This document shows positions 1 to 52,747 of a DNA stretch of 64,000 bases, piece after piece. Every line of letters begins with the position of its first letter. The first letter of the stretch is position 1. The stretch is taken from the NCBI GenBank assembly GCA_943736015.1, contig OX031068.1, positions 28,528,296 through 28,592,295 on the forward strand, written 5' to 3'. Made by a program: the position numbers and the translations under genes. Under the pieces are notes generated by a model. The model was given only the letters and a program-made list of their open reading frames with translations, made no database searches and was not told the origin of the DNA. This DNA is from Tridacna crocea. Lineage: Eukaryota; Mollusca; Bivalvia; Cardiida; Cardiidae.

Positions 1-655
1 ATTAGTCGAAGACCATCCAACAACAAGAGAATTTTGAGATTTAATATGGCACAGGTTGAAACACAGTCTATTTTTACAATTGAGCAATTCGCTCATTTCC
101 ATACCAGATGACACAGACGAAGCTTCAAACATAGCGTCCGAAGAAGACATTAAGGAAAACAATTATTTTTTTGTTATGTTATGGAATTTAACCCATTACC
201 ACACAATCCCTACTTTTGACGCCCCTGAGAAAGAAACCTTTTGAAAACTCTGTGGGAAAAGGAGAAAATGCTGGTAACCAGCATTTTCTCCTTTTCCCAC
301 TGTGTTTTCTACCCTTCACAGAACAAATTTCAATATTTCAGTAACCTTTATTTTGTTGTCTGCGAATGCTTTCAATTTGGACCAGTCTAAAATTTTCTTG
401 TGTGGTAAAGATTTAAATGCCATTAGTCATGTACCTGTCACTTTACATTCCCACAATGCTTTTTTATCTTTGGCACGAAATCTAAAAATATCTTAAGAGG
501 CTACGTAGACTTTTATGGCAACACCACCCCTCATTTTTTTTTTTGTAATTTTATGATTCTGAATTATTTATGATTTGTATTGTTGTTTCATATAATATAC
601 ATGTATTATATACCTTTTAATTTGGTGAGATGCAAAAAATCTAAATATCCACCCC
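1..655 (+). repeat. AAAGGTGG-end repeat, copy 1 (cut by window edge), with nested MITE
   Basis: The sequence matches the inner and right parts of the complete copy at 60677-61216, including GACGAAGCTTCAAACATAGC and the AAATATCCACCCCT end. Its left end lies outside the window. A TTAA MITE sits inside it at 192-412. Confidence 0.8.
192..412 (+). mobile_element. TTAA MITE, subfamily A, with a datable empty site
   Basis: A 221 bp element between TTAA 188-191 and TTAA 413-416. Its palindrome is centred near 273. The host repeat reads GGAATTTAA then ATGCCATTAG on either side; the unoccupied relative at 60966-60982 has one TTAA there. This shows the target duplication directly. Confidence 0.93.
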
Positions 656-6757: not shown

Positions 6758-6762
6758 TTTAA

Positions 6763-6983
6763 CCCATTACCACACAATCCCTACTTTTGACACCCCTCAG
6801 AATGAAGCCTTTAGAAAACATTGTGGGAAAAGGAGAAAATGCTGGTAACCAGCATTTTCTCCTTTTCCCACAATGTTTTCTACCCTTCACAAATAAAATT
6901 TCAAATTTTCAGTCACTTTTATTTTGTTGTCTGCAAATGCTTTCAATTTGGACCAGTCTAAAATTTTGTTGTTTGGTAATGGG
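6763..6983 (+). mobile_element. TTAA MITE, subfamily A, complete
   Basis: TTAA 6759-6762 and 6984-6987. The palindrome is fully intact. Nearly identical to the copies at 1561 and 54270, so among the younger copies. Confidence 0.93.
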
Positions 6984-7134
6984 TTAAAAGCTGTAGTTGT
7001 GTGGTTAAGTGTTAAAATAACCCAAATGAGAAAAGGAAGATATAAACAATGCTATAGGTGTTTGTTGTAAGTGCTTTCTCACAAAATACTGCATTATTGC
7101 TGTAATTTGATCATCATGGGCTTCTACTCTTATT

Positions 7135-11273: not shown

Positions 11274-11680
11274 CTCTTTACCAAACGAAAAAATTGCAGA
11301 CTTGTCCAAATTGAAAGCATTTGCAGATGACAAAATAAGTGGCTCAAAAAATTGAAATTTGTTTTAACCCTTTCCCAAACAAGCCCTGGTTTTTACTTGT
11401 CTGCAGTAAAACTCTTTTGAAAACACTGCGGGAAAAGGAGAAATTGCTTGTAACGAGCAATTTCTCCTTTTCCTACAGTGTTTTCTACCCTTTTGAGAAT
11501 TTTCTGCCATTTTCTCGAAATCTAAAATTGTCGTCTACAAACTCTTTCAGTTTGGAAGAGTCCAAAATTTATCGTTTGGGAAAGGGTTAAGAAGGGTAGA
11601 AAACATTGTGGGAAAAGGAGAATGTTTTGAAAAGGCTTCTTTCTCAGGGTGGATGAAAGTTGGGATTGTGTGGAAAAGAG
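11274..11680 (-). mobile_element. TTAA MITE, subfamily A, split by a nested MITE
   Basis: Left half 11274-11363 and right half 11591-11680 belong to one copy, interrupted at an internal TTAA by the copy at 11368-11586. The palindrome itself is deleted (GGAGAATGTTTTG). The outer TTAA sites are 11270-11273 and 11681-11684. Confidence 0.88.
11368..11586 (+). mobile_element. TTAA MITE, subfamily B, nested, variant core
   Basis: TTAA 11364-11367 and 11587-11590. The core differs from consensus on both arms together: CACTG with CAGTG, and AAATTGCT with AGCAATTT. Three mismatches remain between the arms. Confidence 0.9.
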
Positions 11681-11689
11681 TTAATGTAC

Positions 11690-13567: not shown

Positions 13568-13621
13568 TTAAGAGGCAAATGTAAACAAGGCATGAGAATG
13601 AATACATAGTTCTGAGAAACA

Positions 13622-13821: not shown

Positions 13822-14039
13822 TTAACTCTAAATGATACCTCAAACTTTTCTAATCCAGTATCTATCTTGCAGTAATAGCATCCACAGCACAAAACATCAC
13901 TTTGGTATAAATAAATAGGTAAAATAGATAATGCAAGCTTTCTCCCAACAAAATACTACATTTTAGTGAACCAAAAATAGCACAATACATCACTAAATAG
14001 AACCTGCAAGTCTCACTCGCACATTGTTACTTGTTACGT

Positions 14040-14222
14040 AACTCTAGTAACCAAACAACAAAATTTCAGTGTGGCTAAAAATGATGGTGATGGTCTTAGA
14101 AATGGTGGAAAACATTGTGGGAAATGGAGTAAAATGCTTGTTACCAGTGTTTTCTCCTGTTCTCAAGTTTTCAAAAATCCTTTCACTTGTGGTCATCAAA
14201 ACTTTGATTTTTTGGTAAAGGG
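14040..14222 (-). mobile_element. TTAA MITE, diverged
   Basis: Left CTAGTAACCAAACAAC, right GGTAAAGGG with TTAA 14223-14226. The left arm is shortened. Confidence 0.7.
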
Positions 14223-14226
14223 TTAA

Positions 14227-14365
14227 ACCCTACCACAGAACAACCATGGTGAGAGATTTTTTAAAACAATGTGGAAGAAGGAGAAATGTTCATTCCTATA
14301 AACACAAAATGAATTAGTTTTATAATTTTGCCAAAATGTTTTTTAAAGATCTTCTGTCTCAAGAC
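14227..14365 (+). mobile_element. TTAA MITE, partial
   Basis: CCCTACCACAGAACAACC left end and AAAACAATGTGGAAGAAGG; the centre is replaced by unrelated sequence. Confidence 0.5.
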
Positions 14366-14432
14366 ACAATATATTGTATTAGTTAACCATATTTATTTTA
14401 CATAGATTAAGAAACACCATCTGACAACTTAA

Positions 14433-14648
14433 CCCTTTACCCCGTAAGGCATTTCTATGGTATCTCTAATTGATCATAAATAACAGCAAGGATGAAGCCG
14501 TTTCTTATGTGTATATTAAACCTGCTGTTGGCATAGAAAACATTGTGACAAAAGGTGAAATTGCTCATCATGAGCAATTTCACCTTTTGCCACAATGTTT
14601 TCCAAAGGCTCCCATAAGCGTAAAAATGAGTATCTATGGAGTAAAGGG
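14433..14648 (-). mobile_element. TTAA MITE, subfamily C
   Basis: TTAA 14429-14432; the right flank is TTAC. The core reads CAAAAGGTGAAATTGCTC with its partner GAGCAATTTCACCTTTTG, arms otherwise nearly identical. It is inverted relative to the other two C copies. Confidence 0.9.
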
Positions 14649-14674
14649 TTACATACTAATCTTTCTTGAAACAG

Positions 14675-14814
14675 CTACCTGGAAACTATGCCAGCACTTG
14701 TGCCAAATGTGTGGGCCAGTGAACAGTTCCCAAGTTGATACCCGTTCTCTGGTATCAAGTTTGAGACCTTATGGTCAGGAGACAGAAGCTCTACTTCACC
14801 ACAACAAAGGTAGG
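14675..14814. other. Exon-like segment, strand uncertain
   Basis: Plus strand: acceptor cttgaaacag, donor CAAAG/gtaggc, open frame with LCQHLCQMCGPVNSSQ. Minus strand: donor TTTCCAG/gtagct, open frame with NCSLAHTFGTSAGIVSR. The minus-strand peptide SLAHTFG-x-S-x-G-x-V recurs at 53954-54086 on plus, with codon-level silent differences. It may be a shared exon or a repeat; unresolved. Confidence 0.35.
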
Positions 14815-14824
14815 CTGAGGTAAC

Positions 14825-15032
14825 CTTTTACCATACAATTCCCAAGTTTTAACAATCCTGAGAGCATTTGAAAACATTCTCAGAACAGGAATGGACTACC
14901 AGCATTTACTCCTTTTACAAGAATTATTTTCTACCAGATCAAAGATAAATTTCACCATCTAAGCCACTTTGAATCCGCCATCTACAGTTCCTGTCAATAT
15001 GAACATGCATAGAATTTTGTCAATTTGTAGAT
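14825..15032 (+). mobile_element. TTAA MITE, subfamily A, diverged
   Basis: CTTTTACCATACAATTCCC left end; core at 14868-14935 is heavily mutated. It abuts the next copy. Confidence 0.65.
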
Positions 15033-15036
15033 TTAA

Positions 15037-15257
15037 CCCTTTACTAAACAATCCCTAGTTTTTACAACCCGGAGGCAGAAGGCTTCTGATAACAAAGTGG
15101 GAAAAGGAGAAAATGCTCGTAACCAGCATTTTCTCCTTTTCTCACAATGTTTTCTACCATTCTAAAAACAAGTTATAAATTTTGAGTAATATTCATTTTG
15201 TTGTTTGCAAATGCTTTAAGGTTGGGCATGTCTAAAATCTTGTCCTTCCATAAAGAG
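15037..15257 (+). mobile_element. TTAA MITE, subfamily A, complete
   Basis: TTAA 15033-15036 and 15258-15261. The palindrome is intact apart from AAAGTGGG and TCTCAC changes. Confidence 0.87.
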
Positions 15258-15338
15258 TTAAATATAGAAGCCTAGGAAATTCTACAAGTTGATAGAAATA
15301 AAGAATGATTTTAATGATTCTACAGAATCTAGACTTAC

Positions 15339-15419
15339 ATAATAACTTTGGAGATCAGTCGCCTCTCTGCATTCCTTCTTGTAGTTTTATTGTCATCTAG
15401 TAGAACTTCCAGCTCATGG
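15339..15419 (-). CDS. IQ-motif gene, downstream coiled-coil exon
   Basis: An 81 bp exon, acceptor tgttttacag and donor ATTAT/gtaagt. It enters in phase 2, as the 30740 exon requires, and reads HELEVLLDDNKTTRRNAERR then LISKVIM. The assignment to the same gene rests on strand, phase and similar composition across a 15.3 kb gap, so other exons may lie between, or this may be another gene. Confidence 0.58.
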
Positions 15420-18400
15420 CTGTAAAACACAGGATTAAAACAAAAATCTGAGCACCTCTTGCAATTTTACCAGAATGCGTTAAATCAGCATTTTCTCCTT
15501 TTCCAACAGTTTTCTTGCATTTGCTCCTTTGGATCTCAATTTCACCACAGCAATCAAAATAATATGGCTACGCCTCTGGTTTTCTTCATTTTCAAAAATG
15601 ATTTCAACCATTTGAGCTGAATCTGTTGTCTGCAAAATGCTTGGGACTTGGACAAATCCAATTATTGTTATCTGGTAAAGAGTTAACCAATTGAAAGTGT
15701 TTTTAGCTCCACTGACCCAAGGCCAGCGGGCTTATGTCATGGCCCAGTGTCTGTCATGCGTCCGTCTGTTGATGTGTCCATCATTAACTTTTATTTCAAA
15801 CACCTTCTTCTCTGAAACTACCCATCCAAATTTGATGAAACTTCACAGAAATGATCCTGCCATGGTCCTCTTCAGAATTCTTGAAAGAATTTGATTCCTT
15901 CAAAAACTCTGGTTGCCATGGCAACAAAAGTAAAAAAAGAATTCAAAATCTTTTGCTCTAAAAACCAGGCCCAGGGCTACTGAATTTGGCATGTAGCTTT
16001 ATCTAAGGGACCTTTAAGAAGTGTCTTCATATTATAGGCCTGGGGTCAGAATTGGCTGCATTCCAGGGATCACAAGTTTAACATGGGCTTCAAAATAAAG
16101 TCACTTCAATTTAAAAGATTCATCAAGAGAAATAACTCTTTATAAAGGATAAAGTTTGTTACTATTTACCTCCCTTGATTATCAAAGTGGTGATACATAA
16201 TTGGTGCCAGATATCGAGTTCTTTCTTTTTATAGAAAATATTCTGTTTTCAGGGAGAGTGATTCATTTTGATGCTAATAGTTATGCTCACATGCATGGAA
16301 TGATTAATTCATAGAAAAGTTTCTATCATTAGGGTTTTTTCCTAGAACTTTACCTTTCATGCCAATGAATTACCCTGCTTGTATTGCCTGACGGTGTTCA
16401 CTGTTTATGAAGGCCCTCTTTTTTAGGGTAATGAACACTTCAATTTGTGTGGTAAAGGGTTAAAAAGCAAATGGAGCAATACAGGGCCGTCATGGCCCTC
16501 TTGTTTTTTTTATGACAGCAATTGAAATGAAATTCAAACCACAGAACTTGTCAGTGATAGAGTAGGAAACTTTTTGTAACAGGGAGATAATTCTGGTTAT
16601 CATCATTTTCTACCCTGCAAATAATTTTTTCAAAAACCTAATGTCCATATTTTGGCTGTTTTTCAAAATACAAGAGGTCAAGTCCCAATAGATTGATGCT
16701 GTAAGGGTTCATTTGTTTTAATACAATGTCTGTACAAAGGAAAGGGACTTCAAAAACTTTGTTCTGTTTCTTCTAATAAGTGCTCTTTGATGCTAGTGTA
16801 CAAAAATTTACAATTTACAGTTTACAACACTGTTTTAACTTTGTACAACGCTGACAAAACAAGCTGCTAAAACATCATGGGAAAAAAAAGAGAAAATGTT
16901 GGTACCCAGCACAATGTTTGCTATCCTATCACAGACAGATATCATCACTTGAGCCGCCTTCAATGTGCACATGCTTTAACTTCAGACAAGTCTTCAATTT
17001 CATGAAGTAAAGAATTAAGATAATTGAATATTAGATTTCAAAGGAATACTTGAGATATTTTCATGAACTCTGACCTACTGAACCAATTTAGTTAACAACA
17101 TTGAACATTGTCTCCGCCTAAGATTGCATTCTACAAATACATGTACATACATGTATCTATCTAATTTGGGCATTCTGGGTACAGAAGCGAACTTCTTTTC
17201 TATGCCACAACTGTAACTTTGAATTTCAAACTAAAACAAATGTTTACTCAATGAAAAGCTACCTGGCGTGATTCATTCAGAGCTATGATCAGCAGTTTAG
17301 AGAAATCTGGAGCTTAAACAGGCCTGTTAGGCCCCTTTTCACAGCATATGATTCATTTCCACTTGATCAGCACTGCCAGTGGTGCTTGAACCCGGATTTT
17401 TGGGTAACAAATCTATTACTCATAGGATCTTGTGGATTAAGTTTTGATGTTCATTACTTTTTCTGGTAACCAGCATTTTCTCCTTTTCCCACAGTGTTTT
17501 TCTTCTCTTCCTAACACAAATTTTGATTTTTCAGTCACATCTAATTTTTTGTCCGCAAATGCTTTCAATTTGGACCAGTCTAAAATTTTGTCGTTTGGCA
17601 AAGCGTTAAAGTTTCATTTCATTCACCTTTACCAGGATAAGGGTTAAAAACTCTACAAGCTCTTATTCTCTGGAGAATAATCAATAAAATGATGGCAATT
17701 AATCTCAACTGATGCCAGGAGCCTGTCACTGTAGAATGATGTGGCACATGGAACTGATTGTCTTTCCTATCTTCAAAATCTTCCGTTGACCTATTCCCCC
17801 ACCCACTTAATTCTATACCAAATGACAAAGTTAACCCTTTACCACACAATCTTTGAAAAACCCTGAAAGAGAAGTCTTCTGAAGACATTGTGCTAAAAGG
17901 AGAAAATGCTGGAAACCATGACACACTTTCTACCCTTTGCAAAACAAATTTCATTTTTCAGTCACACTTATTTTGTCTAAAATGCTTTCAAATTGGACAT
18001 GCCTAAAATTTTGTCGTTTGGTAAGGAGTTAACTCTTTACCACACAATCCTGACTTTTAAGTGAGCCTGCTGAAGAAGCCTTTTGAAAACATTGTGGGAA
18101 AAGGAAAAATGCTGATAACCAGCATTTTCTCCTTTTCCCACAATGTTTTCTACCCTTCACAAAACAAATTTCAAATTTTCACTAACTTTTACTTTGTTGT
18201 CTGCAACTACAATCATCTTTCAATAATTGAAGAATTAAACCAACAACCACTCACAAAGCGAACTCAGTACGACTGGATGAAATGCCTGGCCAACTGAGCC
18301 AATGGGGCTCAGCATCTATATGCAGGATTTTCCATGACCCCGTCTCTTTGAATTTTAATTGACACCCCCACCCCATTTTCAAAATGACCCTCAAAATTCA

Positions 18401-27400: not shown

Positions 27401-30400
27401 AGTTCTACACAAGGCCTTTCTGAAGCAGTTTTTGAGACATTAACCCTTTACTCCATAGATACTCATTTCTACGCATTGCATGTAGGAGCCTTTGGAAAAC
27501 ATTGTGGCAAAAGGTGAAATTGCTCGTGACGAGCAATTTCACCTTTTGCCGCAATGTTTTCCAGACTATCAAAAGGTGTCATATACACATAAGAAATGGC
27601 TTCATCCTTGCTGTTATTTAGGGTCAGTTTAAGATACCATAGAAATGCCTTATGGGGTAATGGGTTAAAGATGGCTATCTGGCAAAATTTGTCTTTTACA
27701 GGGCAGAAAGCATAATGGAAAAAGGAGAAAATGCTGCTAATCAGCATTTTCTCCTTTTCCCATAATGTTGTCCAAAGTCTTCTCAATCAGGGCAGCTAAA
27801 ACTCAAAATTGTGTGGTATAGGGTTCACTAACCCTTTACAAGATGACAAAATTTTAGCTCTATCCAAAGTGAAAGCATTTGCAGAAGGTAATTTCAATGC
27901 GGCTCAAATGGTGCAATTGTTTATTGATAGGGTAGAAAACATTGTGGGAAAAGGAGAAAATGCTGGTTACCAGCATTTTCTCCTTTTCCTATAGTGTTTT
28001 CCAAAGTCTTCTCCAGCACGGTGGTTAAAACTTGTGAGATTGTGGGGTATAGGGTTAATTAAGCAAATGTAGTACCATGCTGCAAGCTTTTAAAAGCTCT
28101 ATCAATTATGAATAATACTAGAATGGACCTCTATTCCCACAGCAGGTACAGAAATGCAGTCAATACAGAAATATGTAAACATTTGACCCACAGCATGCTT
28201 GATGCTTGATGCAACTTTACTCGCTTTTGTGAACAAAGTAGGTTCAGATCAGACTGTACAGAATAGCATGTGCATTCTAGAATCTACAGTGTTCAACGTT
28301 TCACAAGAAATTTTGGACAAACTTTTTAGAAATTCTCATAGTTTCGCCTTTGTTCTGTGCTCTAAAGCAGTCAAGGTGTTTTATTTAGATCCTAGTTTAA
28401 AGTTAATGCTTCACTCTTTACCAAACAATCCCTAGTTTTTAGGACCTTGGCATACAAGGCTTTTGAAAACATTGTGGAAAAAGGAGAAAATGCTGGCATA
28501 TAGCCCCATAAAACAGATAAAAGAAGGCAAAAACTAAATGGGCACATGTAGAAAATCGGCAGTCTGGGTATGGGGTTGCATGTGGTAGTCCAGATACAAA
28601 GAAACAGGGAGTCTGGGGAAAAACCTGTACCAAAATTGTAATACGTGAATAGACTACACACAAGTTGGAGGACAATAACCTCATGTTTCCATGAATACTC
28701 AGCACACATGCAACATTATTTTCAAGACATTTGTCCTGAACATCGAACCTTGATCTGCCTAAACCAGACAAAAATCTTATGTTTCAAAGTTTCAAGGCAT
28801 GCTGTAAAACTATCCATATTATTCCAACTGCTACCCCACTCTCTATATAGTGTCCCACGCAGGATTGGCAATACGAGCCTTATAATGATCACACACAGTT
28901 CCAGAGCATACATTATCCAATGCATTCATTGTTCAAGTAAGTCTTTTTTTAAATTTTTCATGTAGAAAGTATTCAGAAGTAACCTGGGTCCATACTTACC
29001 AACCATTCTTGACTTCATTCTTAGTCTTATTCTAGATTCTAGAAACAACTTCTGATTGGCATTACTTTTTATTTTTTTTTTTACCATCAAATCCATAAAA
29101 TTCTTGAGAAAACATCAAGAATTCCCTTTCCCACAAAACAAATTTTAGACTCTGCAATTCAAAACAGCTGCAGGCTACAAATTAAAAATAAGTAAAAGTA
29201 AGCCTAATTTCTCTGATAAGATAGAAAGCACTGTGGCAAAAGAAGAAATATGTTGGTTACCAGCATTTTCTCCTTTTCCCACAATTTTTTCAAAAGGCTT
29301 CTTTCTCAGGGTAGTAAAAACCCTGGATTGTTTGGTAAAGAGTTCAATATGGTTGGTGAATAAGGACTCTTGTTGAATTCATACAAGAATCTAAGAGAAA
29401 ATGGAGACCTGCAAATCACACTACATTTCCATTTGTGTGTACCCAAATGATGCCTTCAAAATCACACTTCATTTCCACCACTTTAAATCTATTTGTGTGT
29501 ATGCAAATGATATCAAAAAAACTTCCTGTTGCCAAGTTCTGTAAAAGTACATGTATTTATTGGCATTCAGAAATACTAAACATTGTGTTCTTGACGTCAA
29601 CAGTTCATGTCATCAGCATTTAAAGCCCAAAGTAAAGACTGCAAAAATGAATTGTGTTACCCAAAACACAACTTAAAGGTGGGAATTTTGACTTTACACA
29701 TCCCACCAAATTAAATTAAGAGCTGTCACTGAATGTGACTTGATACCCCCGCCAGCACTTTGACAGAAAAAAGTGTCAAGTTCAAGGGGAGATAATTCCT
29801 CAACCAGGAGGAGATGACACTTGAAAATTGTGTCTTGCAAATCTTCAATATATGATCAATATATGTGCAAAGTTTACATACAATTGAAGGAAAAATGTAG
29901 GAGGAGTTGGCGACACAAAATAACTTGTATTTTGTACACAGACCGACACACACACAGACACACAGACATTCTTAGGAGAGGAACTTGTGGGGTTGAATCG
30001 CTCTTTATTCAATGCAACCCCACAAGTTGATTTTTAACCCCACTAATCCCTAAACCCTAATACAATATCCGCCGTGTAAGGGCGGACAAACACACAGACA
30101 AACAGGCTGATTCCAGTATAACCCGAAAAACATGTTTTGCGGGGGTATAAAAATATCACAATACAAATCATCAATAATTAAGAATCATAGAATTACAAAA
30201 AAAAAAATTTTGAGGGTGTTCCCTTAAAAGGCTACTTAGTCTCTTAAGGTATTTTTAGATTTCGCATCAGAAATCAAGAAAGCATTCTGGGAATGTCAAG
30301 TGACTGGCATGTGACTAATGACACTTAAATTTCATAACATAATAAATGTGTCATTATTTTCTATAATTCTTCTTCGGACGCTATGTTTGAAGCTTGGTCT

Positions 30401-37348: not shown

Positions 37349-38773
37349 GAGCAAGGTACCCTATTATCGACACGTTAAGCACTCCAACGTGAATTTCGGC
37401 ACACAATACGTTTTTCCGATCGGAAAACAACCTTGTTTATAAAGCAAGATTTCATTGGATATTTCATGCCATGACAAGGTTCATACGAAGAAAACTCATC
37501 CAATGAAATGCCTTGAAACAGCTACACTCAATTTTGTGGAATTCAAAAAAGGTTCCTATCATCGACACCATTCAACTCCTATTATCGACACCCACAAGAA
37601 TCCATTACAAAACAGTTTAACCCCTTTCCATCATCATTTATTTCATGATTTTGTAGCCTACAAATGCTTTCAAGTCAGTCTAGTCCAAAATTTTGCCGTC
37701 AGGTAAAGAGCTAGATCAGTAATTTACGTTAATTCCAAAACAAAGTTCAATTGTATTTAAACAGCCGTTCTACCTCATTGAAACATCTTTTAACAAAAAT
37801 GTTACCTGCCAGGACCCTGTTTAATTAATATAATTACGTACAAATTTGCGCAACTACAGTCTGGCGACACAATTCTGTCACAAGATACGAGACAACTATC
37901 ATGCTTAGCCTACTTTTGAAAACTATTGTGACAAATCAAAGTTTCCTGAAAGTTTGACCTACATAAGATGAAAAGATACAATTTCCAGGAAACTTTGATT
38001 TGTCGCAATAGTTTTTTTTTAAATAATCATGATAGTTATCTCCTGGTGCTGCTCAGATTGATACCAGTGCTATGATATGCTTACATAAAACTTAGACAAA
38101 TTTTGTTTGTAACTACCGTAGTAAAATGAGGCCTAGCTGAAGCGAGGTAATACTTTACACTTTTGATGGGAAGAAATCTCCACTGATACTCAAATCAGTG
38201 ACACATTGGACAGACAAATTCACATTTTTCCCTTTCATCCTCATATGGTGGCTCGTATTCTGGGCGATGTGGGCACATGAAACGCCGCCGTGTATCGCAT
38301 ATTTCACATATAACCCAACAGGATGGATGCCGGTCTCCCTTGCACCATACTGGACACATGTCACAGAGGGGTGTCGATAATAGGAAAGTGATGTTAATAC
38401 CATAACCTATTATCAACACCCTCAATATTTGCCAAACAGAGCGTGATTATAACTTAAAACAAGTAGACAGAGGTATAACAGGACATTTACATCCAAAAAA
38501 ATTCAATAATGCATGTTTTACAGCTTGATTTACAACATGGTGTACCTATAAAAAATCATGTCACCTTAGCCAGGTCTGTAAGAACGCCGACAAAAACGCA
38601 AAATTTTTCTTTTCTTGTTTATACACATTCCAAAATGGCACCGACGAAGTAAAACATGTGTGACATCATTATTAAACTTCCCGATGTAATTAGATGACAT
38701 AATAATTATATGTAAACAGAGAAATGCTGCAGTGTCGATGATAGGAGAGGGTCGAAGTTAGGAGACATTGCTC
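37349..38773. mobile_element. TA-flanked 1.4 kb element with repeated CCTATTATCGACACC motif
   Basis: 1,425 bp with ends GAGCAAGGTACCCTA and (reverse) GAGCAATGTCTCCTA, flanked by TA 37347-37348 and 38774-38775. The motif CCTAT(T/C)ATCGACAC occurs near 37359, 37555, 37578 and 38406 (one base changed) on plus, and near 38370 and 38733 on minus. Subterminal repeated motifs of this type are often transposase-binding sites; that is inference. It also holds a hairpin (GACAAATCAAAGTTTCCTG / CAGGAAACTTTGATTTGTC at 37935-38010), a MITE right fragment at 37617-37712 and a cysteine-rich frame. TA duplication fits a Tc1/mariner-type mechanism. Confidence 0.82.
38195..38390 (-). CDS. Cysteine-rich reading frame inside the 1.4 kb element
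   Basis: An open frame on minus ending at TGA 38195-38197 with 10 cysteines in about 55 residues. They are arranged C-x2-C-x3-C, then two similar blocks (CWVICEIC and CEFVCPMCH), suggesting a zinc-binding fold. No in-frame ATG is suitably placed, so it is a fragment, an exon or a relic. Captured host sequence or part of a lost transposase are both possible. I do not recognise the family. Confidence 0.35.
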
Positions 38774-38901
38774 TAGAAAACATTGTGGGAAAAGGAGAAA
38801 ATGCTGGTTACCAGCATTTTCTCCTTTTCCCACTATGTTTTAAAAAGGCTACTATTTCACACCCGTAAAAACCAGGGATTGTTTGGGAAAGGGTTAACGT
38901 G

Positions 38902-38983
38902 GTTTTCAGTCACTTTTTTTTTTGTCATCTGCAAATGCTTTCAATTCGGACCGGTCTAAAATTTTGTCGTTTGGTAAAGAGTA
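38902..38983 (+). mobile_element. TTAA MITE, right-arm fragment
   Basis: TTTTCAGTCACTTT to GGTAAAGAGTAAA only; abuts the TTAA of the preceding copy. Confidence 0.65.
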
Positions 38984-39105
38984 AAATAAAAGAATTTCAG
39001 AGACAATTGTACCGATTGAGCCAATTTCAAATAGCTGATTGCAAATGTTTTAAAATACCAGTTTTAAAACTTAGTAAGCTTTACCGATTAGTATTTAGAT
39101 TTTCA

Positions 39106-41586: not shown

Positions 41587-44500
41587 GTAGGAATTTATTG
41601 TATCAGTCTTATTATTGCTCTATTTAATACATTTTCCTCACAGTGAGGTAACAAAAAGCTGATTATGGGCATTTTGGGCATGGAAATGTTTTTGAATTCA
41701 AGACACTCCTTACTTGTGGAAAATACGGGATGAGAAAAGTTTGTGAATAATTCAAACTCCTGAAATTGTGAAAATTTCCGCATCTCAATACTTTCCACTT
41801 GTACAGTAATTCTCATCCTCGGATACCCCGGGGTCTCCCTATTTGCTACGCTACATCAACCCCTGGGACAATTAATTGAATTTTCCTTTACCAAACAATT
41901 TTCTGAAAAACACCGTGGGAAAAGGAGAAAATTCTGGTAACCTATATTTTCTCGTTTTCCCACAATGTTTTCTACTATTCTAAAGTCAAGTTTCAATTTT
42001 TGAGGCACACTTATTTCGTCGTCAGCAAATGCTTTTAATTTAGAAAAGTCTAAAATTTTGTCGTGTGGTAAAGAATGTTAGTGTATGCATCTCAAGATGC
42101 ATTATCACTAGCAAGTCATCACATAATTACTGATACATGACATGAAGTTCATCTAATAACAGCTTAGGTAGAATGGTCCTGGGACATGCAGAAAATTTAC
42201 TAATAGCTTTAACCCATTACTCTATAGATACTCATTTCTACACATTTCTTGTATGAGCCTTTGGAAAACATTGTGGCAAAAGGTGAAATTGCTCGTGACA
42301 ATCAATTTCACCTTTTTCCACAATGTTTTCTTCACTATCAAAAGGTGTCATATACACATAAGAAATGGCTTCATCCTTGCTGTTATTTAGGGTCAATTAG
42401 AGATACCATAGAAATGCCTTATTGGGTAAAGGGTTAAGTTAAGACCCAGGTCAGTCTGTGAAGACTGCACAAATGTGAATTGAAAGGAAGCAATCACAAC
42501 ATACGACTCCACTTGATGAGAGAATAGCATTGTTATAGTCTACCTATGACCTATGCATGTAAACAGTGTTATGTCATACAGTGCTGGTAGAATGGTATCT
42601 GTGTTATTCCATGTCAATAATTTGTCGTCTGCAAACGCTTTCAAATTGAACAAGATTAAATTCATTACCTTGTAAAAGAGTTTTTATCTTGCGCTTTGGG
42701 TAGGTTGTCGAGAAATATTTGTGAAATACTTTTCAACATTTCATGGTTATGACTAGGCAGTGAAAATTACGCGGGTAAAACAACGGTGCCTCACAACCAG
42801 ATGGAAATATGACATAATTTACCTCACATTTTTTGCACTTGATGTAATATCTTAATGTGTTGCTATGCGGAGTGGTTCACCACAGAGAGTAACCGAAAAG
42901 AACTGTTTTGGAAATTAAGTTCCCCCCAGAAAGGGTTATAAGTATGAAATAGACAACTTCTTTTTTCTGTGAAAGGTCGAAATTTATTTCATCTCATGAA
43001 CATCATCAGTAATATTTTCACGAGTTGCAATTTGATATACATGTATTTTGGTCAATTTGTCGTCTTCAAATGTTTTCAAAGGGGACAAGATTCAAGAGAT
43101 TTGTTGTTTTGATAGAGAATTAATTAAACCTGACTGCGATGCATATTTATGATTACAGGAATTTTCCATGCATGGATATGGGTACCAGATAAAGCTAAAA
43201 TCAACAAGAGGAATTGTACTTGCTCCTGTTTTGATACAATCATGAGAGGTTAGTGAAGTTGTTATGTATGGATCAGTCTATAAGAGTACACTACAAGGGC
43301 ATTTTTCTGCCAAATGTCTTTGTATAGAGTGAGCCAAAAGAAAAATAGTATAAAAATACTCATTTTTCATCAACACAATTTTTAGTCTTGAACAGATTGA
43401 ATTTTTTTCTCTTCTCATTGTGTTCTCCAAGCCCTTGTCTTCAATGTTGTTAACCCTTTACCAGATGACAAGCTTTTAACCTTGTCCAAATTGAAAGACT
43501 TTGCAGATGATAACTTTAATGTGGCTCAAATGGTGCAGTTTCTTTTTGATAGGGTAGAAAAAATTGTGTGAAAAGGAGAAAATGATGGTTACTAGCATTT
43601 TCTACTTTTCCAACAATGTTTTCAAAGAGCTTCTTTTCCAGAATGGTTAAAAGTTGTGATTGTGTGGTAAAGGGTCAAATCATGGGAATGGTCTTATATC
43701 ACCCAACAGAATATTATGTATTTACTTGAACTGTCTAAACATTACACTTAATTGATGAAAGAATTTTTGCAACCTACGACTATTGTATAATGTACATAGA
43801 TACCTGATTTTATATATGTGCCAAATTTACCAAACAGATGATAAATGGCCAAAAGATTTTATCTGTCTGTTATAATTGATAGTTTTTACAACCTTTCTGT
43901 CGAAATTATGTTTTCATCTTTATTTCTGTGAAGATTTGAATCATTAGGGAAAATGGCTTGAGGTAAAATATGTCACTACTGTCGTCAGAAAATATAGAAA
44001 ATAATAAAAGTTTTTAAACTCTTTACCAAACAATTTTTTTTCCCATCAAAATTGAGAGCATTCTTCAGATGACAAAATGGATATAAAATTTCTTTATCAA
44101 AAGTCAGAAAAATTGTTGTTAAAAGACAGGATTGCACAATAAAGGGTTAATTAATCCTGTCCCAAATGACAAATTTTAGTCTCTTCCGAATCCAAATATC
44201 TGCAGATGACAAATTTGAAATTGATACAGATGAGATGAAATCATGTGAAGGGAGAGAAAACATTTGTTTCCCAAGAGTTGTTGAAATGAGCATTTTGCAG
44301 GCACATTCAAACAAACTATATGTATCTACATGTATTCCTTTTCTTAAAGTTTAAATCTTTACCAAAAGAGATACCTGCTAATCTAAGACTTGTCCAAATT
44401 GAAACCATTTGCAGACAACAAACATGACTCAAAAATTGAAACTTGACTTTAAGAGAGTAGAAAAACTGCTGGAAACCATCATTTTCTCCTATTCCTACAA

Positions 44501-47500: not shown

Positions 47501-50500
47501 CATTTTTATGGTTAGGTTAGAAAACATTACTTTTATTTTCTCCCTGTCTCATGATATTTGCAATGCCTTTTCCCTAGGATGGCTAAAAAATGGATTTGTT
47601 TAGTACAGTAAATAGTTGAAAAAATCTCTGTTATTCACCATATTTTCCTACTTCTCTTTCTTAACCCTTTCCCAAACGACAAATATTGGACTCTTCCAAA
47701 CCAAAAGAGTTTGCAGATGACAATTTTAGACTTGGAGGAAATGCTAGAAAGTTCTCAAACAGGGTAGAAAACATTGTGGGAGAAGGAAAATTGCTCGTTA
47801 TGAGCAATTTCTCCTTTTCTCACAGTGTTTTCAAAAGACTTTAATTGCAAACACATAAAAACCAGGGCTTGTTTGGGAAAGGGTTAAGTCATTAATTTTC
47901 CAGTCGAGGAGTTTTGGGCTTTACTGAGGATACAGGTTAAAATCATATAGCTCTACTCAAACGAGAGATATGTACACATAGTGCATTTTTCCATTACAGC
48001 ATTACCAAATTGTTCATGTTATGAGCTTGTTTAACTCACTGCCACACAATCCCTACCTTTGACGACCCTGAGAAAGAAGCCTTTAGAAAACATAGTGGGA
48101 AAAGGAGAAAATGCTGGTAACCAGCATTTCTACTTTTCCCACAATATTTTCTAACCTTCACAAAACAAATTTCAAACTTTCAGTCACTTTTATTTTGTCG
48201 TCTGCAAATGCTTTCGATTTTGACAAGGTAAAATTTTGTTGTTTGGTAATGAGTTGATAGTCTTTTGTTTGAAAATTTGAACATTTTTTGTTTACAGAAA
48301 AAGTTTTTTTTAGTAAATGAGAAAACATTGATTTTTCCAACACCACTTTTAACTCCTGTGTCTTTCTTAGTATTCCTCGCTGAAACACCGAGGGATATTG
48401 TTTTGGCGATCTTTATCTGTGCAGGTTTTTGTCAGTTTCTCCATCGGTCTGGGAATTGTTAGAATATGTTACAGTTTCTAGAAACCTTGGTCTGAATGCA
48501 AAAGTATTTGTTATGTGATAATTAGACCAACCTACTGAACTAACAGGCTGAGCTTAGATAGCTCAGCTGTTTTCATAGAAAACATTGTCATAGTGCTCGC
48601 AGTATCTGTGTTATTGTGGTCTGTGTTGACAAGGTAGCCCAAATAGTTTGACATTTCATAATACCTCTGTCATTATTGAACATATTTATTTCAAACTCGG
48701 ACTAGCAAAGTTTTAAGTATCAATAGGGGACCCATACAACAAAGGCAGGTGACCATTCAAACATTATTGATGCAGTTTGCCCCTTTTTTGACTTGGAATT
48801 TGTTCTGAAAATATGTCTTTATTTTCAAAGCAACCAGAGCTGAGCCTTTGCACCCACAGTTGATGCTCATGATCATTAGTACCCTGATTTCAACTCTTAT
48901 TGCATCACTTTCGTTTCAGTTACTGATACAGAAACAAACAAAAAAAATCAAATGAGCAATGCTCTGTAACAAGGGGGTTTAATGTATCTGGAAAAATATC
49001 AACAGAGGTCAGCCTGTGCAGTCTACATTGTTTAATTTTCTGTATGTCCATAGACCGATCTGTCTCATGCTTAGGTCAGTTGTTAAGAAAAAAGTGATTA
49101 TTATGGGTTAGTAAGTATGTATTGGCTTGTTTGATGTAATGATTCTTGGAGATACATTAAGCCCCCTTTTATTAGATCATGGCTCAATTATATCCTAAAC
49201 CTTGCTTTCTATGTATTTCCAGATACCCACACTACTATTCATGGTGGAGTTACTTCAGTTACTACAACGAGGACTTTTACCGCTACTTTGGTCATCACAT
49301 GTGGTTTACGATCACAGAAATCATCACCACCTGCATCGTGCTGAATCTCTGTGATATCAGAAATGAGATCATCTCGTGGAAAATTCTTGCCATCGTCAGC
49401 ATCAACATAATGCATATCCTAGTTGGGGGAATGGATCAGTTTATATCAGATGTGATTTACGGCCAAGGAAGAAGATTCCATAAAGCTAGGAATATAGGTC
49501 AGTGGGAATAACTTGTGTCTTTTGTTATATCCCTTTATCAATCACTTTCTTATTTAACTCTTTAATATTCTTTATTTACTTTTAAGGACCCTGAGGAGAA
49601 GCCTTTTGAAAACTTTGTAGAAAAAGGAGAAAATGCTGGTAACCAGCATTTTCTCCTTTTCTCAAGATGCTTTCAACAATTTGAATGACAAAATTTATGT
49701 TGTATGTAACCTGTAATTTGTTATCTGCAAATGCTTTCAATTTGGACAAGGCCAAAATTTGCTATTCCGTAAAGGGTTAAAGTGAAGAATGAACTTAAGA
49801 GAAATAAGAAAAAATTAAACCAGGGCTCATGTTTACCAACCATTCATAAGAATGTTCTTTGTCTTATTTTCCAGAATTTTCTACATTTCTAAGTAACACA
49901 ACTTCTGACTGGCTAAACCATTTAGCTAAACCGTTTGGTTTAGCCAATCAGAAGTTGTGTTACTAACAAATTTAGAAAACCTTGGAGAATAAGACTAAGA
50001 ATATTCTCAAGAATGGTTAGTGAATATGGGCCCAGTATATTTCCCACATTTTCAAAGACAAATTCTAACCTTCAAGCAACATACTGATTTGTTGTCTGTG
50101 AAATTTTAATGCAATCAATCAGAACAGTCACTTGAAGTAAAGCAATTAATCCCATGTTCAGTGAAAATGTTTAACTCTTTACCACACGAGAAAATTTTAG
50201 ACCGGTCCAAATTGAAAGCATTTGCAGATGACAAAATAAAGGCGACTGAAAAATAGAAATTTGTTCTGGGAAGGGTAGAAAACACTGTGGGAAAAGGAGA
50301 AAATGCTGGTTACCAGCATTTTCTCCTTTTCCCACAGTGTTTTCAAAAGGCTTCTTTCTCAGGGGCGTCAAAAGTAGGGATTGTGTGGTAATGGGTTAAA
50401 AGATGTTCTTGAAATAGGCAAAAATACAGGTAACCAGCATGTGTTTCTTTTCTATTTTCTAATGGTAAAATTACGACATGGAAAGCTTTTGCAACTGACT

Positions 50501-52747
50501 TGTGATGGTATTCTTTCTTGAAATTTAGCATTAGAAGTTAGGTCTGCATGTCTCTTGCTCATTCTAGGTTCAAGGTCCGCATTCACCAACCATTCTAAAG
50601 AACACTTTTAGTCTTATTCTTCGAGATTTTCTAAATTTGAAAACAACATAACGTTTGATTAGCTAAACCAGGATACCACATAATCCTGAATTTTAACTAC
50701 CCTGAGAAAGAAACCTTTTGAAAACATTTTAGGAAAATGAGAAAATGTTGGCACAAAAAACCCGAATTTTAACTACCCTGAGAAAGAAACCTTTTAAAAA
50801 CATTGAAGGAAAATGAGAAAAAGCTGGTAACTAGCTTTTTCTCCTGTTACCACAATCTTTTCTACCCATCCCGAACCAAATTTCAATATTTCAGTCACCT
50901 TTATTTTGTTGTCTACAAATGCTTTCTATTTGGACCAGTCTGTAATTTTGATGTTTGGTTAAAAGCAATGTTGTGTTACTTCAAAGTTTAGAAAAGCTTG
51001 AAGAATAAGACTGAAGTTGTTCTTGAGAATTGATGGTGATCTAGAACTTACAGTGAGCAGGATGTATCGAATCACTGTTCATCAGTGCAGATACTTTCAA
51101 CAAATCATATTTGAACTACAAGTATTGCATAAGGGCCTGCATGGCAGGATTCTTAATCTTTGGGTCAAGGGTTAAATCCTCACTTTAACCCCTTACCAAA
51201 GAATCCCTGGTTTGTACGACCCACAGATATAGAAGCTTGTTGAAAACATTGTGGGAAAAGGAGAAAATGCTGGTTACCAGCATTTTCTCCTCTTCCCACA
51301 ATGTTTTTTACCCTGCTGGAAACAAGTTTTGATTTTTGAGTTACGTTTAATTTTTTTCATCCGAAAGTGATTTCAATTTTGACCAGACTAAAATTTTATC
51401 GTTTGGTAAAGAGTTATACACTAGGTTTCTTGTGGGAATAGCTTTTGGCAAAAAACATGTCAGAACCTAAGCCTAGTGCTGGTGATGACTCAGGACATAC
51501 GATGTCATGTGTTGTGTGAGGTATGAACTTGATAATATGACTGACATAATTTTCAAAATGGCATAAACCACTGTTATGTGTTGAACCTCATTTGCTGGCC
51601 AATCAATTTGCCCCATATTTTGGAAAAAACGCCTGTCTTATTTATCAACCTGGCTCACTGAACAATTAATTATTAAGAGTTTGCCACTTAATTATTAAGT
51701 GTTTAAGGTGAAGAGCACATAAGCCAGTGAATTGTGGAAACTCCGTCCTACTGTCCTGTCAGGCTGACATGTTTTGTACTACATGTACAAGTGTCTATTC
51801 AACCCTTTCAGTGCTGCATTTAAAACATTTGACAGTTCCATTTTGATCACTGGACCATTTCATTTTTGTATCATAGTGTTTAATTCCAAATAAATGAGTC
51901 GGGTATGGATTGATCGAATTCCTCTTCCAAAAAGTCGAAATTCAACAAACCTGAATTAAAATATCATCGCCGAGGCCTACTCTACGATTTGTATCGGAAA
52001 TGGGACACATCATACATTTACGTCCAGCAGGAAAATGAAATTCGATGGCGTAAATGGTTTCATCCCAATATTAACTCTTATCCTGCTGTATAAATAATTG
52101 TATATTTTCAATTTGATATGAATAGCCTAAATATTACTACCGGTACTTCAAAGTTATGTTTTGGGGAATAATATCTCCATATCAGACAGGGTAGATCAAA
52201 GATCTGACTGCATGTTCTGTGAAGTCTGAAATTGACCTTCACTGTCCTCAAAAAGTCAGCGAGTTGGGACAGTCGAGCTTAGCGGCCAAGGGGTTAAATG
52301 AAGGCGCCACCTGCATTTACCTCACCACAAAAGGATTTCACTGGCTGTCGCACTACAGGTCAAAGGTTAAACACTAAGTCAGTTAGTGTTTATTAATTGA
52401 AAATTTAACAATTAAGGCACACCGTTCGCTCACTACGTTGGCTCCCCTAGGGTGTCGTAATTGATAAATTTTGAATTAATAAACACTAACTAAACTAATA
52501 CTTAATCAATCAGTGAACCATTGCATATTGATATAATTGGTGTTGAGATAAATTTCTAATTCTTTTGCTCTATTTCATTCCAGGTTTGATGATTCCAGAT
52601 GTTCTTCATGTTTGTATTCCACTATGGGAGCTGTATAAATTTGCAAAACGAAAGGACCTCAAAATCAACGAGATTTGTTACAAAGAGGAAATATTTTTGT
52701 GCATTCTTTTTGTTTCCATGGGAACGTTGGTTGGACGATTATTATAG
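41378..52747 (+). CDS. Multi-pass membrane protein gene, five exons, family not recognised
   Basis: Exons 41378-41586, 43159-43248, 45471-45660, 49223-49497 and 52584-52747 join without a frame break. All introns are GT-AG (donors gtagga, gttagt, gtaagt, gtcagt; acceptors ttcag, tacag, tgcag, tccag, tccag). Starting at ATG 41406 the product is 299 residues; the exon stays open upstream of that ATG to its acceptor, so an upstream coding exon is possible. Hydrophobic stretches lie at about residues 42-69, 113-136, 180-198, 206-222, 247-263 and 281-298, giving five or six membrane segments. Residues 80-84 (CTCSC) are a cysteine cluster and 138-144 is a basic loop (RRRNIRR). Polar residues near or in the membrane (H157, H178, H179, E186, H218, D225, D251, H254) could be functional; that is inference. 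Introns of 1.6-3.7 kb are packed with MITEs. No signal peptide is obvious. I do not know the family. Confidence 0.85.
41882..42077 (+). mobile_element. TTAA MITE, left arm shortened
   Basis: CTTTACCAAACAATTTTCTG left; GTGTGGTAAAGAATG right; dyad lost on one side (CCTATATTTTC). Confidence 0.72.
42213..42433 (+). mobile_element. TTAA MITE, subfamily C, complete
   Basis: TTAA 42209-42212 and 42434-42437. Very close to the C copy at 27444; the palindrome has decayed at the centre (GCTCGTGACAATCAATTTC). Confidence 0.92.
42606..42680 (+). mobile_element. TTAA MITE, right fragment
   Basis: TTTGTCGTCTGCAAACGC to TGTAAAAGAG. Confidence 0.5.
42698..43035. repeat. Repeat with GGTGAAAGATC hairpin, copy 2
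   Basis: Same family as 2848-3285; the second hairpin arm is missing (ends ATATTTTCACGAG). Confidence 0.7.
43046..43125 (+). mobile_element. TTAA MITE, right fragment
   Basis: CAATTTGTCGTCTTCAAATG to TTGATAGAGAATTAA. Confidence 0.5.
43159..43248 (+). CDS. Membrane protein gene, exon 2
   Basis: This 90 bp exon runs from acceptor tgattacag to donor AGAG/gttagt, phase 1 to phase 1. It encodes the end of helix 1 (GIFHAWIWV), a basic stretch (KAKINKR) and a cysteine cluster (CTCSC), probably in the first loop. It sits 34 bp after a MITE fragment. Confidence 0.8.
43454..43672 (-). mobile_element. TTAA MITE, subfamily A
   Basis: TTAA 43450-43453; right flank TCAA. Shares the GGCTCAAATGGTGCAGTTT arm with 27832. 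Confidence 0.85.
43680..44018. other. Intron spacer, no feature seen
   Basis: Intron 2 of the membrane protein gene; no repeat or exon recognised. Confidence 0.35.
44020..44275 (-). mobile_element. Two partial TTAA MITEs
   Basis: A short copy ends ATAAAGGG at TTAA 44147-44150 and is followed at once by TTAA 44151-44154 and a left half (TCCTGTCCCAAATGAC..). Confidence 0.6.
44354..44572 (-). mobile_element. TTAA MITE, subfamily A
   Basis: TCTTTACCAAAAGAG left, GGTATCTAGAGAG right, TTAA 44573-44576. Palindrome left arm mostly deleted. Confidence 0.75.
44860..45077 (-). mobile_element. TTAA MITE, subfamily A
   Basis: TTAA 44856-44859 and 45078-45081. Core GGAAAAAATGCTTATGACAGC has lost central pairing. 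Confidence 0.85.
45234..45418. repeat. AGCTCCAGATAGGAGGG palindromic repeat, copy 3
   Basis: Right end CTTATCTGGAGCTCT; central hairpin CCCTATGTTATGGGTAC / GTACCCACAACATTGGG. It ends 52 bp before exon 3. Confidence 0.8.
45471..45660 (+). CDS. Membrane protein gene, exon 3
   Basis: This 190 bp exon runs from acceptor ggtcttgcag to the strong donor TTT/gtaagt, phase 1 to phase 2. It encodes a possible glycosylation site (NST), a long hydrophobic segment (LRIWVFTVLFILMAYESIKY) and a basic loop (VRRRNIRR) before the next helix. A palindromic repeat with AGCTCCAGAT-type ends stops about 52 bp upstream of the acceptor. Confidence 0.85.
45697..46980 (+). mobile_element. Element ending CCTCTTG with internal 160 bp tandem array
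   Basis: Begins GAGTGAGCTATTGTGATCAC and ends GAGCGATATAGGACC..CCTCTTGTTT, the same end type as 15701-16510. Lies in intron 3. Between 45775 and 46560 it holds five copies of a unit of about 160 bp starting TTTGTTTACACTCTAG. Confidence 0.75.
45775..46560. repeat. Tandem array, about 160 bp unit, five copies
   Basis: Unit starts at 45775, 45936, 46087, 46247 and 46408 (spacings 161, 151, 160, 161). Shared phrases are CAAATATCAACCAATCAG, CCAAACTTGGTCAAAG and GAGTTATTTGCCCTTGAAT. Confidence 0.92.
47145..47360 (-). mobile_element. TTAA MITE, diverged
   Basis: CATGTGACAAAATTTTAGAC left; GTATAGTAAAGAGTAAA right; palindrome left arm lost. Confidence 0.62.
47365..47620. mobile_element. Very decayed TTAA MITE remnants
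   Basis: GTAGAAAACAT phrases near 47489, 47506 and 47519 suggest scrambled left arms. Confidence 0.35.
47665..47883 (-). mobile_element. TTAA MITE, subfamily B, variant core
   Basis: TTAA 47661-47664 and 47884-47887; ends CCCTTTCCC / GGGAAAGGG. Dyad AATTGCTCGTTATGAGCAATTT, the same compensated type as 11368-11586. Confidence 0.9.
48035..48252 (+). mobile_element. TTAA MITE, subfamily A
   Basis: TTAA 48031-48034; right flank TTGA. Palindrome intact except for GCATTTCTAC. Confidence 0.87.
48260..48955. other. Intron spacer, no feature seen
   Basis: Intron 3 of the membrane protein gene. One frame near 48265-48462 is open but has no splice support. Confidence 0.35.
48955..49180. repeat. CAGGCTGAC-type repeat, upstream of exon 4
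   Basis: GAGCAATGCTCTGTAACAAG and AGAGGTCAGCCTGTGCAGTC, with right flank GATACATTAAGCCCCCTTTT. Ends about 40 bp before exon 4. Confidence 0.55.
49223..49497 (+). CDS. Membrane protein gene, exon 4
   Basis: This is the longest exon, 275 bp, phase 2 to phase 1, from acceptor tatttccag to donor ATAG/gtcagt. It opens with an aromatic-rich stretch (YPHYYSWWSYFSYYNEDFYR) followed by GHHMWFTITEIITTCIVLNL and KILAIVSINIMHILVGGMDQ, two membrane helices with embedded H, E and D residues. This aromatic and histidine-rich block is the most distinctive part of the protein and the best query for a homology search. Confidence 0.87.
49558..49776 (+). mobile_element. TTAA MITE, subfamily A, complete
   Basis: TTAA 49554-49557 and 49777-49780; lies 57 bp after the exon 4 donor. 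Confidence 0.87.
49821..50035. repeat. ACCAACCATTC palindromic repeat, complete
   Basis: Ends CAGGGCTCATGTTTACC.. and ..GAATATGGGCCCAG. Central hairpin pairs CAACTTCTGACTGGCTAAAC with GTTTAGCCAATCAGAAGTTG. About 215 bp. Confidence 0.85.
50175..50395 (-). mobile_element. TTAA MITE, subfamily A, fully paired variant
   Basis: TTAA 50171-50174 and 50396-50399. The core reads ACACTGTGGG at left and CCCACAGTGT at right, so both arms carry the same change from ACATTGTGGG / CCCACAATGT and the palindrome stays perfect. Confidence 0.93.
50568..51037. repeat. ACCAACCATTC palindromic repeat split by a TTAA MITE
   Basis: Left half CATTCACCAACCATTC to GATTAGCTAAACCA; right half CAATGTTGTGTTAC to GTTCTTGAGAATTG. 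The insert is the MITE at 50668-50958. Confidence 0.75.
50668..50958 (+). mobile_element. TTAA MITE with tandemly duplicated left half
   Basis: A 76 bp unit (GAATTTTAACTACCCTGAGA..) is repeated at 50688-50763 and 50764-50839. The second continues into palindrome and right arm; right end TTTGGTTAAAA. Confidence 0.83.
51189..51413 (+). mobile_element. TTAA MITE inside a SINE-like repeat
   Basis: TTAA 51185-51188, right flank TTAT. Palindrome near perfect. SINE-like flanks: GGCCTGCATGGCAGG before, CTAAGCCTAGTGCTGGTGAT after. Confidence 0.87.
51420..52070. other. SINE tail and unassigned intron sequence
   Basis: 51420-51580 is a SINE-like tail. 51790-52070 is unique-looking, with CpG-containing phrases (GTCCAGCAGG, TTCGATGGCG). 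No exon supported. Confidence 0.35.
52075..52293. mobile_element. Second TTAA-flanked family, copy 1
   Basis: TTAA 52071-52074 and 52294-52297; ends CTCTTATCCTGCTGTATAAA and GCTTAGCGGCCAAGGGG. Interior unrelated to subfamilies A-C, with ATCTCCATATCAGACAGGG and GATCTGACTGCATG. Reverse relative at 57767-57938. Confidence 0.7.
52370..52510. repeat. Short inverted repeat
   Basis: TTAGTGTTTATTAATTGAAAA near 52384 pairs with TTTTGAATTAATAAACACTAA near 52470. It lies 75 bp upstream of the last exon. Confidence 0.65.
52584..52747 (+). CDS. Membrane protein gene, last coding exon
   Basis: The acceptor is atttcattccag. The frame continues with MIPDVLHVCIPLWELYKFAK, a basic segment (KRKDLK) and a final hydrophobic helix (EEIFLCILFVSMGTLVGRLL), then TAG at 52745-52747. 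No AATAAA is visible in the first 110 bp of 3' sequence, so the 3' UTR probably runs into the TATACCCCC-type repeat that starts near 52861. Confidence 0.83.

Follow-up and report, generated by a model that had tools for sequence, protein, structure and literature searches.

The 64-kb stretch of Tridacna crocea DNA analyzed here (hereafter the window; C13:28528296-28592295 of a 1.049-Gb genome in 31 contigs) holds many copies of a family of miniature inverted-repeat transposable elements (MITEs) built around a palindromic core. Lineages of this family differed in the core by changes that were paired across the two arms, and this pairing was inherited from the founders; the core changed slowly between distant copies, and its distance from the left end was held in common. 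Settled copies decayed independently on the two arms at pair 28 of the core. These findings are best explained, in a reading that we hold with about even confidence, if the core is a cis-acting part under selection during mobilization and not at rest, if founders were mostly perfect or near-perfect palindromes, and if their paired changes arose via template switching.

The family consisted of non-autonomous, TTAA-targeting (piggyBac-type) MITEs. A typical element was 229 bp with TTAA at either end, which is too small to hold a transposase gene, and elements were short, homogeneous and present in high copy number. The consensus tips were TTAACCCTTTAC for both ends of type C and the left end of type A, and TTAACTCTTTAC for the right end of type A, and many copies ended in TTAACCC(T/A)TTAC. 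Left and right ends agreed as terminal inverted repeats at 16 of 20 bases in A and 17 of 20 in C, and the consensus ends carried the CC[C/T]T motif by which the available text of PMC2872659 recognizes piggyBac MITEs. TTAA bounds were present at 27440-27668 and in most of the 12 seed copies; across a set of 213 copies, the left-end pattern could be located in 113 and the right-end pattern in 109. Elements followed a general plan in which a 67-bp palindromic core was preceded by 55 bp and followed by about 107 bp, the TTAA being counted in on each side, so that the core began 51 bp interior to the left TTAA. The core comprised 33 pairs flanking one unpaired center base; it was numbered 1-67, with pair i joining position i and position 68-i. 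With a profile built from repeated copies, 118 non-overlapping matches were found to cover 20.7 kb of the 64-kb window. Outside it, in 25 stretches picked at round-number places on nine contigs, 202 matches made up 14.7% of 250 kb, ranging from 0 to 48% per stretch. Exact core patterns had zero matches in the collections of viral contigs and genome contigs searched.

The original prediction, which rested on three type C copies in the window, was that the cores of types A and C differ at four or more arm pairs and that each difference is compensated on the opposite arm. This was borne out on the consensus of 24 full-length C copies, in which all 33 pairs were intact. From A, the commonest core type, to C, pair 14 changed from G-C to C-G, pair 21 from A-T to T-A, pair 26 from A-T to T-A and pair 31 from G-C to C-G, and the unpaired center base 34 also differed (A in type A, G in type C). 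The chance that four random right-arm changes would hit the partner positions with the complementary base was 3e-7. The three copies did prove to be of C type, but the one at 42209 had two of its pairs broken (14, C.T; 31, C.A), and the one at 27440 had a later T.G mismatch at pair 11. The further claim that the outer arms of A and C are unrelated held for their interiors, which matched like shuffled sequence (11/33 and 30/83 identical; shuffle P 0.62 and 0.79), but not for the bases at the ends and beside the core: the two consensuses shared 12 of 12 bases at the left end, 11 of 12 at the right end, and 8 of 10 and 9 of 12 next to the core, and they had the same spacing of 55 + 67 + 107.

Further core types filled in the picture. 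Type B was A with pairs 26 and 31 changed and pairs 14 and 21 unchanged, with pair 8 changed too in some copies, and it links A to C. Because such an intermediate exists, descent of C from a single unrelated palindrome, the contrary outcome named beforehand, is unlikely. Type A' departed from A at pair 8 only. Type D, with two copies, combined a B-type core with C-like left ends and different spacers; a third member of the D cluster (L043:488) was removed as an A-like copy, and an unpaired change at position 32 was dropped as an inherited D trait, as one D copy was paired there, the other was not, and the site is a CpG.

The states of the diagnostic pairs were scored in the set of 213 cores, drawn from 364 matches after the exclusion of the part of the tandem locus L011 beyond 1300, poor cores, and copies short of flank; core types had been assigned in a sample of 179 (184 of 319 matches passed, minus five tandem duplicates in L011). 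Type C is over-represented in these sets, because L002-L008 were fetched for their likeness to the C element. Pair 26 was in the A state in 166 cores, exchanged in 31, half-way in 5 and otherwise changed in 11; the corresponding numbers were 146, 27, 2 and 38 for pair 31, 167, 24, 7 and 15 for pair 21, 139, 22, 4 and 48 for pair 14, and 158, 12, 19 and 24 for pair 8. Altogether, six pair changes occurred at founder level (8, 14, 21, 24, 26 and 31), five of them double transversions with no G.U step, and they amounted to at least four independent paired events (pair 8; pairs 26 and 31; pairs 14 and 21; pair 24). The cores were homologous palindromes whose lineage-level differences were compensated far above chance, which requires some coupling between the two arms.

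Exact pattern counts over the whole genome indicated how these changes were inherited. The counts covered the 35-nt inner core (pairs 17-33) and excluded copies with any other change; reversed-pattern controls gave 0 for each. There were 173,858 A, 9,352 B and 14,579 C inner cores, about 198,000 together, and only 9 mixed cores with one A arm and one B arm, either way round. Cores changed at a single pair were similarly few (28 at pair 26 alone, 14 at pair 31 alone). As so few single-pair or one-arm intermediates survive, pairs 26 and 31 were inherited as a four-base block spanning both arms; several pairs fixed in one step, with no surviving single-pair intermediates, are the mark that template switching would leave.

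Whether resident copies go on copying one arm onto the other, as the original prediction had offered as one explanation, was examined at pairs 24 and 28. These pairs belonged to no known lineage, and in the 179-copy sample pair 24 was never changed on both arms and pair 28 was changed on both arms twice, each time without pairing; base types were scored by eye in the first 50 or 100 listed places on contigs C1-C4. At pair 28, 7,822 copies genome-wide were changed on a single arm and 251 on both, where independence predicted 88. Among the first 50 listed both-arm changes, 28 were complementary against 52.7% expected (P = 0.37), so that arm-to-arm conversion at resident loci left no complementary excess at this pair. 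Complementary and non-complementary doubles shared the surplus about equally, as expected when old copies are mixed with young ones, and the implied arm copying came to 0.23% of the copies changed on one arm (range -0.8 to 1.2%). Settled copies thus decayed independently on the two arms at pair 28, and homogenization of resident arms was largely excluded there. Arm copying as a general trait of resident copies was accordingly not upheld; independent arm changes, which had been named as the pattern contrary to the prediction, were found in settled copies at this pair but not between lineages.

Pair 24 behaved differently. Genome-wide, 2,226 copies were changed on one arm and 281 on both, against 7.1 expected, and 44 of the first 50 listed both-arm changes were complementary, 41 of those being the identical C-G. 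Since the same C-G recurred although A>C was among the rarest changes in sampled cores, this excess represented a founder lineage and not a process. Single-arm matches at pair 24 were also unequally oriented, 1,229 forward and 997 reverse, beyond what random orientation would give and perhaps reflecting local duplications.

The growth of paired changes with lineage distance pointed to the founders as well. When the 213 copies were compared pairwise and binned by outer-arm distance (the comparisons being mutually dependent), single-arm core differences rose with distance and leveled off (2.36, 3.66, 5.25, 5.87, 6.28, 6.72, 6.38), whereas paired differences were still rising (0.12, 0.25, 0.67, 1.02, 1.21, 1.30, 1.74). 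Shifting the partner column by 1-3 bases reduced the both-arm differences from 2,807 in register to 1,008-1,316 at distances below 0.2, and from 36,645 to 11,595-15,597 at the remaining distances, so that with all types included the count fell by more than half. Within type A alone the excess was smaller, with 7,991-10,228 against 13,983 in register, a drop of 27-43%. Taken together, the null result at pair 28, the trends with distance and the lineage at pair 24 indicated that the covariation originates in founders and spreads by amplification. The notion that private paired changes are common was tried on the window alone and rejected: with 58 of the 118 matches kept (score >= 85, at most 12 gaps) and B, C and A' copies removed, 5 were seen in 51 copies against 4.2 expected.

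Two further features set the core apart from its surroundings. Outside CpG sites, the core of distant A copies had diverged at 0.39-0.43 times the flank rate. Within the C group, the departures from consensus were 37 of 1,507 sites in the core (2.5%) and 39 of 1,144 in the left arm (3.4%; P 0.16), with 142 of 2,417 (5.9%) in the right arm, shared sub-lineage variants included. The comparison of distant-A with within-C divergence indicated that part of the slowing of the core predates insertion and took place in the amplifying copies. The second feature was the left spacing, which was 55 bp in 66 of 86 A copies, in all 7 copies with a B core (two of them type D) and in 18 of 20 C copies with a placeable left end; the right spacing of D was 108. 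Because the length of the spacer was kept and its sequence in A and C was unrelated, this suggests that end and core act together. The idea that the core was copied from the ends was considered and set aside: a resemblance of some 15 bases between the A left end and a core arm (P 0.02) and another at the C right end (P 0.009) were too weak across eight comparisons.

In the explanation that we favor, the core would be needed while the element moves, for example as a site bound by a transposase dimer or as a DNA palindrome, and resident copies would decay freely, their arms changing independently. Amplifying lineages would mostly stem from founders with a perfect or near-perfect palindrome, and a change in a founder core would mostly fall on both arms, most simply through one template switch in which the mutated arm serves as template for its partner. 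We infer that the core is under selection during transposition, and template switching was probably the maker of the paired changes. Selection acting alone and stepwise must cross mismatches, as five of the six founder changes were double transversions. Template switching alone accounts for the symmetry, the block changes and the half-changed intermediates, but not for the slow core or the fixed left spacing. A more specific reading, which we regard as possible but rather unlikely, is that the palindrome is a mobility checkpoint: the core would be recognized by its symmetry, as a site or a structure held at a constant distance from the left end, and elements whose arms have drifted would spread less until a template switch restores symmetry. 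If this were true, the more than 170,000 copies would be a natural record of selfish DNA jumping between perfect palindromes.

Several observations weigh against the combination of selection during mobilization and template switching. The core of closer A copies was already at 0.38-0.65 times the flank rate, so the slowing cannot be wholly assigned to the time before insertion. Core conservation could also be partly a matter of ascertainment, as copies were found with profiles that contain the core. A search with the right arm and without the core gave 81 matches, 74 of which lay beside sequence whose score against the core exceeded 20 (random places had a median of 11), although the right-arm profile was itself derived from copies first located by the core. 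The right spacing was less fixed than the left: a length of 107 bp was the most frequent in type A (50 of 80 copies placed) and type C (18 of 23) but not among B-core copies (1 of 6). Stepwise intermediates that were later lost would leave the same near-absence of cores changed at pair 26 or pair 31 only. Paired changes were in excess among the sampled A copies, both in 145 copies with mutation load held fixed (30 against 15.4 expected) and in the 102 least-mutated ones (12 against 3.5). We read this excess as small founder lineages because such a lineage was seen at pair 24, although occasional copying between arms would produce the same excess.

Half-changed states told against a strict version of the explanation as well. 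Pair 8 was the sole diagnostic pair at which half-changed copies outnumbered paired ones in the 213 cores. Among the C copies, a C>T change at core position 55 was common to 9 of 24, marking a half-changed lineage that was amplified; 8 of these were unpaired (G.T with position 13), and one (L004:2299) had advanced to A-T. At pair 24, the half-state C.T/A.G made up 43 of 100 listed single-arm copies, where the changes at A and T sites of sampled cores predicted about 13-16%, and this excess suggested that a half-changed lineage was amplified there too. Since some half-changed lineages did amplify, the constraint is not absolute.

The strongest competitor, although a somewhat doubtful one, dispenses with selection on the core: under neutral template switching linked to transposition, each excision, copying or gap repair of an element would allow one arm of the extruded hairpin to serve as template for its partner, and perfect palindromes and compensated changes would be mere by-products of movement. 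Such switching would produce paired changes that rise with lineage distance as single-arm changes do not, together with the lack of copying at pair 28 in residents; it would move pairs 26 and 31 together without intermediates, and it anticipates half-changed lineages between two switch events. The fixation of several stem pairs in one event is known for RNA genes (PMC8794818, in the text available). An inverted loop would likewise exchange the center base for its complement, as seen in 14 of 149 A copies and 3 of 24 C copies; the A>T change at the center (14/149) compared with 1.7% at other A sites (P 1e-6). Because A>G at the center was raised too (7/149), relaxed constraint accounts for part of this swap. 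Copying would preserve symmetry without slowing change, yet the core evolved at well under half the rate of its flanks between distant A copies and the left spacing was held, and it is on these two points that selection during mobilization has the advantage. Center-swapped copies in the window lie, for example, at 6067-6294, 38762-38985 and 51186-51416, and look as though the palindrome had been inverted relative to its flanks.

A role for the hairpin as RNA is improbable; in this reading, core transcripts would fold and be processed or bound, and pairing of the stem would be maintained by selection. The folds were very stable, with z from -11 to -14.5 for three cores under DNA parameters (-37.2 kcal/mol, z -14.5, for the perfect A core at 6814-6880; -35.8 kcal/mol, z -13.4, for the stretch 27494-27560 at the C core), and the unpaired state inherited at pair 13 in part of C was G.T, that is, G.U in RNA. 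Apart from that G.T, covariation did not pass through G.U: five of six founder changes were double transversions, and the amplified half-state at pair 24 involved no wobble. Those double transversions and the free decay of residents at pair 28 weaken the case for RNA, and no Rfam family reached its gathering score within the 64-kb window. Still less probable is a functionless founder effect, in which a few masters with perfect palindromes happened to amplify and the palindrome arose separately, through duplication of one arm, in lineages that show paired differences. The small number of independent paired founder events is compatible with it, but types A, B, C and D are distinct and nevertheless share a near-identical core and the same left spacing, which chance would not be expected to give. 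Continual homogenization of resident arms by hairpin-templated repair is very improbable, as the modest paired excess in the 145 sampled A copies is all that speaks for it, against the result at pair 28, the mere nine mixed A/B cores and the window-only count.

Comparison with known systems placed the family near other piggyBac-type MITEs. The nearest relatives found were the CMITEs of Acropora corals, small TTAA elements of piggyBac type that mostly have CCCTTT ends. Their internal region is conserved across families more strongly than the ends and was proposed by the authors to have a role in transposition (PMC2872659, available portion). The two families are alike in being bounded by TTAA and in having an internal region conserved across families with different ends. 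However, the internal CMITE sequence did not significantly resemble the consensus of either type (for A, best local score 12 compared with 9.1 in shuffles, P 0.07; for C, P 0.75), and it was hardly palindromic, with a self-score of 8/60 compared with 65/67 for the core here. CMITE copies were estimated to number about 1,600, whereas one 35-nt core alone occurred 173,858 times here. The portion of PMC2872659 that was available does not mention compensated changes.

The end structure of piggyBac itself offers a plausible model, by analogy, for what a palindrome near the end may do here. Its ends contain a palindromic internal repeat of 19 bp, to which the cysteine-rich domain binds as a dimer (PMC7351741, in the sections available). 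In the element described here, too, a palindrome lies inward of the transposon end and its distance from the tip is set, although the piggyBac palindrome spans 17-19 bp at bp 17-33 from the tip and the one here is 67 bp and starts 51 bp inside the left TTAA. As regards the copying step, template switches both create and repair hairpin stems, and one event can fix several pairs and can invert the loop (PMC8794818, available text). In that work, on RNA genes, more of the events fell on terminal branches; here, transposon founders were paired and residents at pair 28 were not. In bacteria and yeast, quasipalindrome correction equalizes the arms of imperfect inverted repeats by template switching (PMC3820800, PMC7202029; available portions), but there it is an ongoing mutation at single loci, whereas resident loci here exhibited little or none at pair 28. 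A literature search, which covers few subscription papers, found no report of arm covariation in a MITE, and the short strings of the element used as search words returned no title on this element.

Candidate transposase partners were plentiful. The genome contained 118 matches to the piggyBac transposase family PF13843, many of them full length and open. When the flanks of six transposase families were read, three had clear ends (TTAACCCTTTATATAC, TTAACCCTWGTCATGC and TTAACCCATTTATGCC), all starting TTAACCC. None of the six families examined had the MITE-type ends TTAACCCTTTACC or TTAACCCTTTACTCC, which also counts against the favored explanation. Several open transposase copies had near-equal scores, for example those at C10:28376412, C3:66851558, C4:69349889 and C18:30428954, which suggests recent activity.

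Compensated changes are usually taken to prove that an RNA stem is functional. In this family the signal comes from a DNA transposon and is present in the founders and absent from settled copies at the pair tested, so that one genome suffices to tell selection or copying in the course of spread apart from repair at a resting locus. The findings suggest that a MITE may possess an internal cis-acting part besides its ends. With a 35-nt core exactly repeated at this scale, the rates of pairing, loop inversion and half-change can be counted rather than modeled.

Within the window, the C-type element at 27440..27668 (plus strand, 229 bp from TTAA to TTAA) matched the C profile with 273 bits and had its 67-bp core at 27495..27561, with pairs 14, 21, 26 and 31 exchanged relative to A and the later mismatch at pair 11. 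It was adjoined by two more A-type elements on the minus strand, at 27672-27825 and 27829-28057 (span 27672..28057). The other C-type elements lay at 14429..14651 (minus; core about 14536-14602), where pair 32 was also now A-T and both arms lay within CpG, and at 42209..42437 (plus; core about 42264-42330), where two of the four C pairs were broken later. The window held two B-type elements: one at 11364..11590 (plus), with pairs 8 and 26 exchanged and pair 31 now T.G, and one at 47661..47886 (minus), with pairs 26 and 31 exchanged and pair 8 half changed (C.A). The A-type element with the perfect A core was at 6759..6987 (plus), and another at 50741..50969 (plus) had a lone paired change at pair 27 (T-A>A-T) amid several unpaired ones. 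An A' element at 50171..50399 (minus) had pair 8 changed from T-A to C-G on both arms, the rest of its core being that of A, and the copy at 188..416 (plus) was its near relative. At 13362-13571, a core lacked its central 15 bases and the remainder was still palindromic, which fits hairpin-mediated deletion.

No host gene was named in the window, as Pfam matches on its 18 open stretches were all below cut-off. Elsewhere in the genome, L011:1226-9571 contained a head-to-tail array of at least six repeats of a unit of some 1.67 kb, each enclosing an identical MITE core. The window also contained a 161-bp tandem unit in 4.9 copies at 45774-46544, and two long inverted repeats, with no match of this MITE there, at 23673-23879/24491-24697 (611 nt between the arms) and 60231-60437/60721-60927 (283 nt between the arms).

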